Shown piece by piece: positions 200 to 20,794 of a stretch of DNA of 30,603 nt. Location: the IMG/VR virus record IMGVR_UViG_3300042402_000837, positions 1 to 30,603 of that record. The stretch is one strand, 5' to 3'. A model generated the notes under the pieces. It worked only from the letters and a program-made list of their open reading frames with translations. It searched no databases and had not been told where the DNA came from. The first letter of the stretch is position 1. Each line of letters opens with the position of its first letter. This DNA comes from a virus. The position numbers and the translations under genes were made by a program.

Positions 200-922
200 T
201 CATTTCTTTGTTGCTGAGAATACTATGTCACTCTTTGAGTATACACAAAGTGAGCAAGAAACGCAAGCCGAACCATTTGTTGAGATAAGTGGAATAGCCT
301 TTTTATTCTCAGGACACTTAGCCCCTACCTTGCCTATCATTTCTTTCATGTCTGCTTGTCCTACTAAGAAATTTTTAGCAAGGTATGCAAGACGAATTCC
401 ATGATCATTTTTTAGGGTAACACCAATAGATTTATTCTCACTATCTGTTGAATAGTATAAAGATAAATTAGCAATGTCCTTAAGCATTAGGGCTGCACTC
501 TTTACACGAGTATAAACCCAAAATTGGATATCAGGATGATTAAGGATAACATGCTTCCATGCGAATGTATAAGTATCGTTAAAGAAATCTCCGTCCCAAT
601 GTATACGGAATAACATAGGCGCTTCACGCTTTACACAATCTGCCTTGAAGTCTGCAATCATTTCTTCAAGCAATGCTTCAATGGTGTCATGGTCTGCGTC
701 TTTAACTAATTCCCAATTGTGCAATAGGTTTTTCTTTACTGTTGGGAATACCTTTTCCAATTTGCCTGCATAGCAAACACTCTCGCAGACACTCGTAGCG
801 CCAGGACATGAATAGTTTTTTCCTGCGGGTAATCCGAAAGTGTTAGCGATACTTGCTTGTTTTCCATTTGGTGTGACTGCATTTGCTACTTTCCTGTCTT
901 TGCTTCTAAGTAATTTACTCAT
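200..922 (-). CDS. GP88-like phage protein, Cys-rich
   Basis: This 240-residue protein resembles the actinophage 'gene product 88' family, recognised from the N-terminal layout of a Lys/Arg-rich start followed by LPAGKNYSCPGA and a Cys cluster. Cysteines sit at 39, 46 and 50 near the N-terminus and at 203, 220, 223 and 226 near the C-terminus (the last three as CVSCSLC). The two clusters could bind a metal or Fe-S centre; that is inference, since the family's biochemistry is not known to me. The ATG at 922 has an AAAGAAAGAGG ribosome binding site and the early promoter element at 969..947 just upstream. A 50-codon ORF overlaps its first 8 bases and a membrane-peptide ORF follows it. The plus-strand ORF across 102-404 is a shadow. 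Confidence 0.75.
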   Translation of the reverse strand: MSKLLRSKDRKVANAVTPNGKQASIANTFGLPAGKNYSCPGATSVCESVCYAGKLEKVFPTVKKNLLHNWELVKDADHDTIEALLEEMIADFKADCVKREAPMLFRIHWDGDFFNDTYTFAWKHVILNHPDIQFWVYTRVKSAALMLKDIANLSLYYSTDSENKSIGVTLKNDHGIRLAYLAKNFLVGQADMKEMIGKVGAKCPENKKAIPLISTNGSACVSCSLCVYSKSDIVFSATKK

Positions 923-3962: not shown

Positions 3963-4100
3963 TTATGCAATCTCCAATTCGTTATAGTCAATAACCTGAA
4001 AGTCATGTCTTTCTAGTGGCATAGCCTTTAGCCATGATAGTGCAGACTCAAAGTCGTCTGCCTCAATAGTAACCATTAGGTCAAAGTTAAATAGTGTCAT
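3963..4100 (-). CDS. Small protein (45 aa)
   Basis: A 45-codon ORF overlapping the upstream stop as TAATG. The pattern (NFDLMVTIEADDFESALSWL, then PLERHDFQVIDYNELEIA) looks like a beta-alpha-beta mini-domain. No motif is recognised. It sits in the middle of the seven-gene 4634-3697 operon. Confidence 0.55.
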   Translation of the reverse strand: MTLFNFDLMVTIEADDFESALSWLKAMPLERHDFQVIDYNELEIA

Positions 4101-4264
4101 TACTTTACCTCCTTGTATAAAAAGTCCCAAGCCTTACGGCATAACACAATTGATTTGCAATTGTCACAACAGATAACCCCATGAGGGTTAAGGTCTAAGT
4201 CATAGACATCAACGCTTGCTGATGTAGCCCCACAAACTGAGGGGAGATTAACAAAGGTACTCAT
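4100..4264 (-). CDS. Small Cys-pair protein (54 aa)
   Basis: A 54-codon ORF with ATGA overlap to the upstream gene and TAATG overlap to the next. Cysteines at 11, 32, 33, 36 and 42 include a CCDNC group, compatible with a small zinc site. Function is unknown. It lies between two other small Cys-containing genes of the same operon. Confidence 0.55.
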   Translation of the reverse strand: MSTFVNLPSVCGATSASVDVYDLDLNPHGVICCDNCKSIVLCRKAWDFLYKEVK

Positions 4265-4461
4265 CTTTTAAGTCCTTCCTTTCCATAAGTGTTAATAAAA
4301 TCAGTAAGAGCCATAACGCCCTTGTAGTCTTTACATGCTGGGCAAAATCTATTCCACCCGTCAAATAGTGTTATGCAAAAAGCGCAAATGTTATCCATAG
4401 CGCATAAGCCTTGCTCATCTATGAATTGCATAGTGTCAAATGTTTGATTAGTGTTATTCAT
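4261..4461 (-). CDS. Small zinc-ribbon-like protein (66 aa)
   Basis: The 66-residue product has two Cys pairs (CAFC at 26-29 and CPAC at 40-43), spaced like a zinc ribbon, plus Cys20. The ATG overlaps the preceding TGA as ATGA. Such small Cys-ribbon proteins are common in actinophage early regions. No DNA-binding or catalytic activity can be assigned. Confidence 0.7.
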   Translation of the reverse strand: MNNTNQTFDTMQFIDEQGLCAMDNICAFCITLFDGWNRFCPACKDYKGVMALTDFINTYGKEGLKR

Positions 4462-4634
4462 TTAGTCACATACCAATCTGTCCACATAGGGAATTGTTCT
4501 GGGTCACTATCATAGTAGTAACGCTCAATGTTCTGCTCACAATCTGTGCAGAAAGTAAATTGCTCATCACCGATTTCGGAGATAGCGGATACCATAGGGC
4601 TATGGTCTTTACATAGTGTGTTTAGTGTAGTCAT
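4458..4634 (-). CDS. Small Cys/His protein, first gene of operon (58 aa)
   Basis: A 58-codon ORF with ATG at 4634 behind an AAGAAAGGTGG ribosome binding site. A C8-x2-H11 group and a CTDC pair (29-32) suggest a zinc site. The C-terminal half is Tyr/Asp-rich. It heads a seven-gene operon controlled by the promoter at 4712-4690. Its stop overlaps the next start. Confidence 0.6.
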   Translation of the reverse strand: MTTLNTLCKDHSPMVSAISEIGDEQFTFCTDCEQNIERYYYDSDPEQFPMWTDWYVTK

Positions 4635-5616: not shown

Positions 5617-5810
5617 TGTTAGACTTTGAGATTGCTTTTGCTACTAAACAATTGTTTGATGAAATGTTAGACGAATCCTATCCAGTAGTTACTATGGGTC
5701 AATTAACTTTCTATCCGTCACAGATTCTAAAAGAGTGTGACCCTATTGCCTACAATGAGGCATTGTTAGACTTCCAAGATGCAGTAACAGAAAACGAGGA
5801 CAACGAATGA
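5616..5810 (+). CDS. Small acidic protein (64 aa)
   Basis: The 64-residue acidic product contains LDFEIAFATKQLFDEMLDES and an acidic tail (DAVTENEDNE). The ATG overlaps the previous stop (TAATG) and the stop overlaps the next start (ATGA). No membrane span, no Cys pairs. Function is unknown. Confidence 0.7.
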   Translation: MLDFEIAFATKQLFDEMLDESYPVVTMGQLTFYPSQILKECDPIAYNEALLDFQDAVTENEDNE

Positions 5811-5905
5811 ACGCTATGTATGCACACACTTGCGAATTTTGTGGTGATACAGGTATCATCATTTTCTCTGAAAAAGAGACCCGCATAGACCCTTGCAAAT
5901 GTTAG
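5807..5905 (+). CDS. Tiny Cys-pair peptide (32 aa)
   Basis: A 32-codon ORF with CEFC (9-12) and CKC (30-32). The spacing and the CGDTG following the first pair resemble a minimal zinc ribbon of the DnaJ/RNA-polymerase-finger kind. It is the last gene of the plus operon. Function is unknown. Confidence 0.55.
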   Translation: MNAMYAHTCEFCGDTGIIIFSEKETRIDPCKC

Positions 5906-6097
5906 AATAAATCGGTGGCACTAGTGTTAGAATTATTGACGGCACTAGTGTCAAGATCTTTACACACAACCTACTAGTGTGCTCACTATTCAAATTATTT
6001 TTATTTTACAAAAGTATGTATCATACACATTTGAAAAATATTCAGATTTTGGCAAAAGTGGTTTTTATAAAATTTTTCAGATTTTGGCGGGATAGGG
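5906..6097. other. Non-coding gap with short repeats
   Basis: No ORF of note. GGCACTAGTGT occurs at 5917-5927 and 5941-5951, and ACTAGTGT again at 5973-5980; each of the first two contains the palindrome CACTAGTG. TTCAGATTTTGGC occurs at 6041-6053 and 6076-6088, the second copy ending 9 bases before the -10 of the Fe-S carrier gene. This is the boundary between the small-gene arm and the metabolic/virion part. Confidence 0.6.
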
Positions 6098-6103
6098 TAT
6101 AAT
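6098..6103 (+). promoter_or_regulatory. -10 for the IscA-like gene
   Basis: TATAAT, 6 bases before the ATG at 6110; predicted leaderless. Preceded by GGG rather than TGn. Confidence 0.6.
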
Positions 6104-6109
6104 TAAAAC

Positions 6110-6439
6110 ATGATCTTAACACAAAAGGCTAAAGACAAAGTAAATGAACTAATACAAGAAACCCGCATATCTATTCCAGACAGAGAGGTATTCCTAAGAA
6201 TATCTGTCCAGCCTGGTGGATGCTCTGGTTTGAGATATCAGACATACTTTGACTATGAAAAACTAGACGGAGACACAGACTATAACTTTGAAGGTTTTAC
6301 ATTAAAACTAGATAGAATGTCTAATCCATATCTACAGGGTGCTACGTTAGATTTTGTAGACACAATTGAAAAGCAAGGTTTTACAATTGACAATCCTAAT
6401 GCTCAAGGATCTTGTGCATGCGGAGACAGTTTTAACTAA
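6110..6439 (+). CDS. A-type Fe-S carrier (IscA/HesB family)
   Basis: This 109-residue protein has the length and motif layout of the IscA/SufA/ErpA/HesB family. The three ligand cysteines are present: Cys38 in PGGCSGLRY and Cys102/Cys104 in SCACGDSF. Such proteins accept and pass on [2Fe-2S]/[4Fe-4S] clusters in the cytosol. Known examples in virus genomes are thought to support host Fe-S enzymes during infection; that role is inferred here. A -10 sits 6 bases before the ATG and no Shine-Dalgarno is visible, so the mRNA is predicted to be leaderless. A 46-codon Cys-rich ORF follows after 16 bases. The paralogue (IscA, SufA or ErpA) cannot be decided from sequence alone. Confidence 0.9.
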   Translation: MILTQKAKDKVNELIQETRISIPDREVFLRISVQPGGCSGLRYQTYFDYEKLDGDTDYNFEGFTLKLDRMSNPYLQGATLDFVDTIEKQGFTIDNPNAQGSCACGDSFN

Positions 6440-6455
6440 TTTCGAGGGGAATTAA

Positions 6456-6596
6456 ATGGCCATACTAGATAACGTAGATAACAATACATATCCACTGTTT
6501 GAGACAGAATCCACATCTCTGGCTGTAAAAATATTTTCAGAAACCTGTTGCAATGGATGTAGTTGTCAATCAGAGTCTGATCACATAAAAGAATAA
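6456..6596 (+). CDS. Small Cys-rich protein next to the Fe-S carrier (46 aa)
   Basis: A 46-codon ORF with an AGGGGA ribosome binding site 16 bases after the Fe-S carrier stop. The C-terminal half carries CCNGCSC (residues 31-37), four cysteines within seven residues. This arrangement suits metal or Fe-S cluster binding and suggests a partner or client of the carrier; that is inference. The N-terminal half is acidic and featureless. I do not recognise the family. Confidence 0.6.
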   Translation: MAILDNVDNNTYPLFETESTSLAVKIFSETCCNGCSCQSESDHIKE

Positions 6597-6619: not shown

Positions 6620-7348
6620 TTAATCTTCTACTAAATTATTTTTAATTTCTGTTAAAACTTTTTCTCTAAGTCCAGCATTTTTAAATCTCTCATATCTTGA
6701 TAAAAGTGATGTTCTTTTACCCATAATTAAGGTTGAGGTTAAACAAGAACTAAGATATTGTTCTAGTCTTGTATTTAAATTAAATCGTTTTAATATAATC
6801 GGTCTGTCAGTTAAAAATTCTACATAGAACAATGGCTCATTTTCTTTAATAATAATATCTCCAGAATTTTGCCAGGTTTGTATTTCAAAATTATATGGTC
6901 TAAACCATTGACCAATATCAAATTTTCCTGGAACGGCAGCGCCATAATTTGTATATCCTGGCTTATGAAAATATGGGGGTGTAAAAGAAGCAACAAGTGG
7001 TTCATCAGCAAAAAACAATGTTCTATGCTCTAACTCTATACTCGGCCCAAACTCAAAAGCCTTTTTTCTAATCTGTGGACCAAGTTTATATGATAAAGGA
7101 TCTATAATCTCTACACTTTCTTTACCATCTTTAAAATCATACATATAATGACAATCCTGACCAGATCTAAAGACAAGCACATCTTTATATACTCCGTTAA
7201 ATGCAGGACACATTAGTATATTGGGCTTTGGAGTGTTATCTACCTTGCTTTCATTCATTTCCTGAAATAATGATTTTGGCTTTAAATAAAGCAAAGACCA
7301 GTTTTCATTAAGTATTCCCCAGTATACTGTTATTGGTTTCTTTGACAT
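6620..7348 (-). CDS. Conserved-looking phage protein, unknown (242 aa)
   Basis: I start at the ATG at 7348 (MSKKPITVYWGI), which lies 1 base after the stop of the upstream Cys-ribbon gene; the longer frame from 7378 would overlap that gene by 29 bases. The product is rich in aromatics and Pro (CPAFNGVYKDVLVFRSGQD, FTPPYFHKPGY, IGQWFRPYNFEIQTW), beta-rich in the middle and helical at the C-terminus (SRYERFKNAGLREKVLTEI). I believe similar proteins occur in other environmental phages, but cannot name a domain. No signal peptide or membrane span. Its promoter is shared with the 7350-7547 gene. Confidence 0.7.
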   Translation of the reverse strand: MSKKPITVYWGILNENWSLLYLKPKSLFQEMNESKVDNTPKPNILMCPAFNGVYKDVLVFRSGQDCHYMYDFKDGKESVEIIDPLSYKLGPQIRKKAFEFGPSIELEHRTLFFADEPLVASFTPPYFHKPGYTNYGAAVPGKFDIGQWFRPYNFEIQTWQNSGDIIIKENEPLFYVEFLTDRPIILKRFNLNTRLEQYLSSCLTSTLIMGKRTSLLSRYERFKNAGLREKVLTEIKNNLVED

Positions 7349-7349
7349 G

Positions 7350-7547
7350 TTACCACTTACCCACTGGACACTTGGCATTTGCCAACATAGACTTAGCCTT
7401 CATAAAACAACCACACTTCTTACATGTCTGGCTACCTTTGCGAAAGAACTCACAACCCTTACAAATCTCTAATCGGTACTCTGCTACCTCTTCAGGAGAT
7501 CTAGGGGATCCATTAAATAAGTCCCAAGGCTTTACATCATCACTCAT
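7350..7547 (-). CDS. Cys-ribbon phage protein (65 aa), copy A
   Basis: The 65-residue product has CKGC at 29-32, CKKCGC at 42-47 and a single late Cys in CPVGKW. It is a clear relative of the gene at 20549-20794: both share PWDLFN, a RLxIC motif, CK(K/E)CGC(F/I)M and the CP(V/I)GKW ending. The type is widespread in marine and freshwater phages; it probably binds zinc, with unknown role. A TATAAT lies 6 bases before the ATG, so the start is predicted leaderless. The gene is divergent from the virion genes that begin at 7692. Confidence 0.8.
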   Translation of the reverse strand: MSDDVKPWDLFNGSPRSPEEVAEYRLEICKGCEFFRKGSQTCKKCGCFMKAKSMLANAKCPVGKW

Positions 7548-9553: not shown

Positions 9554-10288
9554 ATGGCAACTAGCATGGATCCACCTCAGCCACTAAAAAAGAAAAACTA
9601 TCTTGACGCAGTAAAATCTTCAAGTCCACAAGAGATAAAAGAGTACTTAGCCGTTCCTGGAATTCAGGGTGAACGTGGTGAGCCTGGACCTAAAGGAGAT
9701 AAGGGTGATAGAGGCGATACGGGTCCACAAGGACCAAAGGGTGACACAGGTAAGCCTGGTCCTCAAGGAGAGCGTGGAGAGCCAGGAAAGGGTGCTGAAG
9801 GATATGATTCAGCATCTGGACAGTATCCAGGATGGGCATACTATAAAAATGCATCAGATAGACCAACTCAACTTGGACCACAAAGAGGAGATGATGGTTG
9901 GGTATCAATAAACTTTAACCCAGACATTTCATTGTCTGAAGAAACCTACATTCCAAAAGGATCTAGTTCTTTATGGCTTACAGATATCGGAATCTTTAAC
10001 TTTAAATCTTTAAAACTTGGAGCCAAGGTTGATATTAGATATGATTTTACTATTTCAACTGAATCAAACTACACTGAACTTTGGATGAGGACTTTTAATG
10101 AAAAATATAAACAATCTCCAACCTCATATGTTGCAAACCTAAAATATCAATATTCCTACGATATGTCTTTTTGTCAAACCTTATACATAGATGACCAAAG
10201 AATTAAAGGCTATGGAGCAAAGCCTCAAGCAAGAACTGACATGGAAAGTGTTATAGTTTTAAATGGCCTATATATATCAGTCTGTTAA
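9554..10288 (+). CDS. Collagen-like tail fibre protein (244 aa)
   Basis: Residues about 36-83 are an unbroken run of Gly-X-Y triplets rich in Lys/Glu/Asp/Pro, typical of phage collagen-like fibre shafts that form a trimer. The N-terminal 35 residues (with KKKNYLDAVKSSSPQEIKEYL) are probably the attachment end. The C-terminal 160 residues start with an SGQYPGWAYY segment and are beta-rich; this is the likely trimerising or receptor-facing head. A GGGGAGGGG ribosome binding site lies 3 bases before the ATG. No glycosylation signal can be read. Confidence 0.8.
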   Translation: MATSMDPPQPLKKKNYLDAVKSSSPQEIKEYLAVPGIQGERGEPGPKGDKGDRGDTGPQGPKGDTGKPGPQGERGEPGKGAEGYDSASGQYPGWAYYKNASDRPTQLGPQRGDDGWVSINFNPDISLSEETYIPKGSSSLWLTDIGIFNFKSLKLGAKVDIRYDFTISTESNYTELWMRTFNEKYKQSPTSYVANLKYQYSYDMSFCQTLYIDDQRIKGYGAKPQARTDMESVIVLNGLYISVC

Positions 10289-20548: not shown

Positions 20549-20794
20549 ATGACAGATAAAAATGATAGACCAGCCAGACCATGGGACTTATTTAATAAAA
20601 ACATTGGTAGGGTAGCAACAATAGTTGCAGAAAAAAGATTGTCTATTTGTGAGACTTGTCCTAGTTTCATAAAAACAACTACACAATGCAAAGAATGTGG
20701 TTGTATAATGAGATTAAAGACAAAACTTCCAAATGCATCATGCCCAATTGGAAAATGGGCAATAGAAACAAACTTACACAACAAGGAGATATAA
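20549..20794 (+). CDS. Cys-ribbon phage protein (81 aa), copy B
   Basis: Paralogue of the 7350-7547 protein: shared PWDLFN, RLSICETC, CKECGCIM and CPIGKW, with 14 additional residues before the first Cys and an added tail. Probably binds zinc. A GGGGGA ribosome binding site lies before the ATG. Placed between the Cys-rich fibre and the V-DN-V protein; the role in virion or infection is unknown. Confidence 0.8.
   Translation: MTDKNDRPARPWDLFNKNIGRVATIVAEKRLSICETCPSFIKTTTQCKECGCIMRLKTKLPNASCPIGKWAIETNLHNKEI

Follow-up and report, generated by a model that had tools for sequence, protein, structure and literature searches.

Iron-sulfur carriers of the A type are a known kind of phage gene. Genes for A-type carriers or IscU have been described in 14 marine viral genomes, together with radical SAM, Cas4 and Grx as partners, and were read as auxiliary metabolic genes (Nishimura 2017, PMC5332604); sufA and iscU had been regarded as viral auxiliary genes earlier still, as cited in the same paper. 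In cells, the family comprises the ErpA, IscA, SufA and HesB carriers, and mycobacteria have been described as having a SUF system without SufA, with a single, probably essential A-type carrier in M. smegmatis (PMC10301553). The locus described here shares with the viruses of Nishimura 2017 a virus-borne A-type carrier, but those viruses are marine and partly T4-like, whereas the present carriers come from contigs that encode WhiB and few radical SAM genes, and have a leaderless-type promoter. Its relatives have in common with the WhiB-encoding freshwater actinophages (PMC6802176, PMC10202952) a WhiB gene marking an actinobacterial host; the genomes of the two Nanopelagicales phage isolates measure about 39 kb (PMC6802176), whereas lengths of 100-119 kb were reached among the near relatives here. 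Term searches of PMC6802176 and PMC10202952 gave no mention of iron-sulfur, nor, in PMC6802176, of IscA or HesB, and no report of A-type carriers in actinophages was found in a search of the open-access literature. What the present locus adds is a viral clade of the carrier and a family of modular microproteins.

The window, that is, the whole 30,603-base stretch of DNA analysed, is an incomplete virus record in which portal, head-maturation protease, class II ribonucleotide reductase and GP88 genes were recognised by profile searches. The PF17289 terminase family was found in none of the 12 records searched, a result that speaks neither for nor against virus identity. At positions 6110-6439 of the plus strand, the window encodes an A-type (ErpA/HesB-like) iron-sulfur carrier of 109 aa. 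Matches above cut-off to PF01521 (E 9.8e-15) and to TIGR00049 (103.8 bits against a cut-off of 58.8, spanning residues 2-109) agreed with the preliminary description, in which a viral A-type carrier retaining all three of its cysteines had been proposed; these cysteines, C38, C102 and C104 (CxnCxC), were invariant in the 29 aligned viral carriers (29/29). The full-length match and the three conserved cysteines are shared with the cellular ErpA/IscA/SufA/HesB carriers (TIGR00049, PF01521), M. smegmatis MSMEG_4272 included. The phage carrier differs from cellular A-type carriers in belonging to a viral clade of its own and in its scores against the equivalog models, which were below the cut-offs for ErpA (NF010147, 92.7 bits against 117), IscA and SufA. 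Solved homologues were 1nwb, 2apn, 1s98, 1r94, 1x0g and 2d2a, and the ends of such proteins, of the type xTCGCGSSF (2apn) or SCGCGSSF (1nwb), contrast with GSCACGDSF in the phage carrier. One further viral locus, L052:4666-5321, held two carrier-like ORFs in tandem.

The nearest cellular kin of the carrier, among the matches listed, were actinobacterial. The best 80 of at least 595 cellular relatives were all Actinobacteria by record title, two Candidatus Nanopelagicales among them, with 59-75% identity over the best segment. Matches in annotated phages, at 34-41% identity, were set aside, some of these records resembling host DNA. In a tree of 45 distinct viral and 77 cellular rows, which had few columns for its rows and a bootstrap that had not settled, 41 of the 45 viral carriers formed one clade (support 100/99), and the microprotein-adjacent carriers of the window, L002, L004, L005, L006 and L007 formed a subclade (99/97). 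Judged by these relationships, the carrier gene is most likely host-derived, from the actinobacterial host of an ancestor of the phage. WhiB, which is regarded as a mark of actinophages (PMC6802176, PMC10202952), was encoded by 23 of 35 related contigs compared with one of 14 control genomes (Corynebacterium), and relatives of the window's GP88 protein, among 374 records, came from Mycobacterium phages (270) and Streptomyces phages (101). The host of the window virus is probably to be found among freshwater actinobacteria.

A 46-codon ORF with four cysteines had been reported to begin 16 bases past the carrier stop, and it was found there, at 6456-6596 of the plus strand. It encodes a modular microprotein of 46 aa, with an N module (MAILDN...), a C module (SLAVKIFSETCCNGCSC) and cysteines at 31/32/35/37 (CCNGCSC). 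As CCxxCxC was also present in three other reading-frame stretches of the window, the motif alone is no proof of a real microprotein gene. Relatives were, however, found in viral contigs, and a pN/pS of 0.28 over all pairs among 26 distinct homologous coding sequences rules out a chance ORF; the gene is under purifying selection. Searches of Pfam, PHROGs and NCBIfam gave no match to the microprotein, by which assignment to WhiB-like proteins (PF02467), to zinc ribbons or to a known phage family was rejected, and in annotated phages nothing was found beyond one chance-level match of 40%. AlphaFold gave no confident fold (mean pLDDT 58.0). The family thus appears to be unnamed in these three libraries, and it was not found in a search of the open-access literature; it is large, widespread and uncharacterised, and belongs to actinophage contigs most of which have no carrier.

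Three short modules recurred among the 69 hits (59 distinct) of a six-frame profile search of the loci collected at that stage, namely N, MxILDN(L/F/V)(E/D); P, DNMGREKFWEDLGRP; and C, LAVKIFSETCCxxCxC. They were combined as N+C (the window), N+P+C, N+C'+P with two cysteines only, N+P without cysteine, and C with a poor N, so that the tail was variously CCxxCxC, one CxxC or CxxC...CxxC, and the members in L126, L127, L138 and L101 had no cysteine at all. Beside other carriers, too, the tail may be of another cysteine pattern or have no cysteine: an N module with a CxxC...CxxC tail was located directly after the carrier in L013 and 563 bases downstream of it in L012, and cysteine-free N-module ORFs were located directly after the carrier in L020 and 199 bases upstream of it in L018. 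Being small and conserved, with exchanged tails, the family offers a good case for the study of short-motif evolution in phages. Outside the family, the P module was seen in a single 124-aa protein (L047/L048), without a Pfam match, which begins with it (SDAMGREKFWEDIGRPD; L047:5996-6367); a relative in L050 is without the module. At L033:416-1073, two CCxxCxC ORFs follow one carrier, the first a 36-aa CCEACTC ORF and the second an N+P+C microprotein.

The upstream regions suggested how the two genes may have come to be neighbours. Two copies of the tandem element TTCAGATTTTGGC (6041-6053 and 6076-6088, plus strand) are located 69 and 34 bases before the carrier ATG, and a -10-like TATAAT (6098-6103, plus strand) six bases before it, at leaderless-type spacing. 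In carrier-free loci, two copies of TTCAGATTT, or of a near variant, mostly lie at about the same 69 and 34 bases, in this case before the microprotein ATG. Across the 59 distinct microprotein upstreams with a full 160 bases, some of them carrier-bearing, two copies were present in 30, one in 12 and none in 17, while two or more copies occurred in 1.25% of random 160-base windows from the same loci. In the window, the place behind the tandem TTCAGATTT/TATAAT promoter is taken by the carrier; in carrier-free relatives it belongs to the microprotein gene. Alignment of carrier-bearing with carrier-free loci placed the carrier between the TTCAGATT element and the microprotein start, and in L004 the junction alignment showed the old start-proximal segment still present behind the carrier. 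The same layout may instead have arisen if an ancestral carrier-microprotein pair lost its carrier, although loci without the carrier are by far the more common.

A -10-like hexamer at leaderless-type spacing was a general feature of these carriers, being found before 31 of 48 (25 of 38 distinct upstreams) as against 38 of 302 distinct control ORF upstreams; the 48 are drawn from 51 carrier loci, after removal of two near a contig end and one without ATG/GTG at the match start. For Mycobacterium tuberculosis, 73% of primary starts have a TANNNT -10 located 7-12 bases upstream, and roughly one in four genes having a primary start is leaderless (PMC3898074). Promoter elements were seen only before the carrier, and the microprotein ATG is preceded, at six bases, by a Shine-Dalgarno-like AGGGG (6445-6449, plus strand); on this basis the two genes probably constitute one transcription unit. 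A leaderless carrier mRNA with the microprotein as its second cistron would be the simplest reading.

We regard as reasonably probable the explanation that a host-derived carrier supplies clusters during infection and is co-transcribed with a microprotein that is independent of it. An ancestor of these phages would have acquired the A-type carrier from its actinobacterial host and, in one clade, the gene would have been placed behind the promoter and ahead of the start of a microprotein gene that was already there, making the latter a second cistron. By analogy with its cellular counterparts, the carrier, expressed from the phage promoter and probably from a leaderless mRNA, would be loaded with clusters by the SUF machinery of the host and would hand them to apo-proteins in the infected cell; host enzymes and WhiB-like [4Fe-4S] regulators of the phage are plausible recipients. 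The additional copy would in this way raise the capacity for cluster delivery during infection. If true, a phage-borne second carrier would show cluster delivery to be a possible limiting factor for infection by actinobacterial phages. The microprotein, a conserved phage product in its own right whose cysteine tail can be exchanged, would probably be a contact peptide forming a metal-thiolate site with zinc or another metal.

A rather unlikely variant would make the microprotein a zinc-binding, disordered contact peptide acting on a host target, and the carrier unrelated cargo that uses its strong promoter. The exchange of CCxxCxC, CxxC and CxxC...CxxC tails and the lack of a confidently predicted fold are in keeping with such a peptide, and the promoter element was also seen before carriers with no CCxxCxC ORF behind them (L028, L029, L032 and L035). 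Other small CxxC ORFs are, moreover, common in the window, which makes a Cys-rich neighbour weak evidence by itself. Tiny ORFs with CxxC pairs were observed at 2025-2201, 4100-4264, 4261-4461, 4458-4634 and 5807-5905, the last (plus strand) being a 32-aa CxxC...CxC ORF upstream of the carrier that is also present in L004-L007; two small CxxC proteins of the DUF6171 type, at 7350-7547 (minus strand) and 20549-20794 (plus strand), both matched phrog_13558. Zinc binding cannot, however, be the common function of a microprotein family of which some members have no cysteine (L126, L127, L138, L101). Nor would unrelated cargo account readily for N-module ORFs recurring near carriers: in the 51 carrier loci, nine of ten were within 700 bases of the carrier, although these stretches account for 84,568 of 429,233 bases (20%), a closeness that is suggestive without yielding a probability, since several of these rows are near relatives.

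The distribution of the two genes was investigated in viral contigs by a carrier search (58 loci), a GP88 search (best 80 loci) and a microprotein search (best 80 of 200 relatives). The preliminary description had interpreted carrier and microprotein as a two-gene Fe-S module and had pointed to their co-occurrence in viral metagenomes as a check. Such co-occurrence was limited. Within flanks of up to 3 kb, a carrier was present at five of 80 microprotein-centred loci, always directly upstream, and not at the other 75. Conversely, the microprotein profile matched 11 of 50 whole carrier records (L052-L054 not counted), nine strongly and two (G017 and G019) via the N-terminal part only; absence of the microprotein from other phages with the carrier, named in advance as evidence against the module, was the finding in the other 39, many records being fragments. 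Carriers were detected in one of 50 GP88 records (30 of the 80 loci left out) and microproteins in 41 of 50, a partly different set from which another 30 of the 80 were left out; in the 43 GP88 records searched for both, microproteins numbered 34, of which G079, G085, G094 and G095 matched weakly and by the N-terminal part only, and carriers none (0/43). Eleven records, L052-L054 again not counted, had both carrier and GP88, and four of these a microprotein match. As each gene is common where the other is absent (34/43, 0/43, 39/50, 5/80), neither depends on the other. One point stands against full independence, namely that in nine of the 11 records with both genes (G001-G006, G017, G019 and G032, not G023 and G037) they were neighbours, which exceeds the expectation for a purely independent pair.

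That adjacency, with the tight spacing and the single predicted operon, is what a dedicated module would predict, the microprotein serving as client, scaffold or cluster donor of the carrier, and it was observed in the window, L002-L007 and L199, as well as in L033 with the CCEACTC ORF in between. We nevertheless hold a dedicated module to be improbable. The 34 of 43 GP88 records and 75 of 80 microprotein-centred loci without a carrier, together with the 39 of 50 carrier records without a microprotein match, show that the pairing is not obligate; the ORF that immediately follows the L020 carrier retains the N module without cysteine; and the adjacent cases belong to one carrier subclade, except for L033 and L199, the latter not in the tree. 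What survives of the original proposal is the likely single transcription unit and the neighbourhood in 9/11 records. Rather than a two-gene Fe-S module, the pair is most likely a borrowed carrier associated with a pre-existing, independent phage microprotein.

A long shot, by our estimate, is that these modular microproteins of freshwater actinophages, with their anchor M-x-I-L-D-N-L/F-E and tails CCxxCxC, CxxC, CxxC...CxxC, DNMGREKFWEDLGRP or none, are adaptors that would steer the phage carrier or the host Fe-S machinery to targets; the accompanying proposition, that it would be the N-terminal anchor and not the cysteines that recurs beside A-type carriers, is held just as tentatively. That the microprotein ORF is a cysteine-responsive attenuator, like the polycysteine leader-type attenuators of mycobacteria, and not a functional protein would suit the shortness and Cys content of the ORF and a host that is probably actinobacterial, but is scarcely credible, given amino-acid conservation well past the Cys codons (pN/pS 0.28), family members without cysteine and no obvious gene downstream to attenuate, the next ORF listed (6620-7378) being on the opposite strand.

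If the carrier delivers clusters as the borrowed-carrier explanation supposes, WhiB-like proteins are plausibly its best candidate phage clients, since they hold a [4Fe-4S] cluster (PMC4850268) and genes for them are present in G001 and G012, relatives that have the carrier; in the window, an incomplete record, no WhiB was seen. As WhiB is also found in phages without the carrier, the carrier would be helpful but not required. Radical SAM proteins were encoded by only two of 35 related contigs, pointing to a modest phage demand for Fe-S clusters, and Cas4-like nucleases (PF12705), considered as clients and rejected, were found in six of 35 records, three of them over cut-off.

The protein at 200-922 (minus strand) had likewise been proposed as a client. 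It is a full-length member of the GP88 family (PF17338, E 1.7e-50) of mycobacteriophages and Streptomyces phages, and the cysteine clusters noted earlier, 39/46/50 and 203/220/223/226, were all present; with C96 they make eight cysteines (C39, C46, C50, C96, C203, C220, C223 and C226) that were invariant in an alignment of 28 (28/28). GP88 may, on this pattern, be a metal or Fe-S protein. No PF04055 or other radical SAM family was among its profile matches, and its model (mean pLDDT 58.7, most Cys regions <50) gave weak TIM-barrel-like fold matches, none with E <= 0.001. A dedicated client it is not, because GP88 occurs in phages without the carrier, which was seen in only 1/50 GP88 records.

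Another arrangement of Fe-S genes was observed on an 87-kb viral contig, where an NfuA-type NifU domain (PF01106, E 1.8e-18), a ferredoxin-like protein (PF13370, E 2e-5) and an A-type carrier follow one another in tight succession (L051:4283-5315). This is, by its profile matches, a three-gene Fe-S cassette, and the same contig also encodes WhiB and a radical SAM protein; NifU was found in one of 50 carrier records (L015, L022 and L039 left out). In the window itself, a collagen-like GxY repeat protein is encoded at 9554-10288, in the tail gene region.
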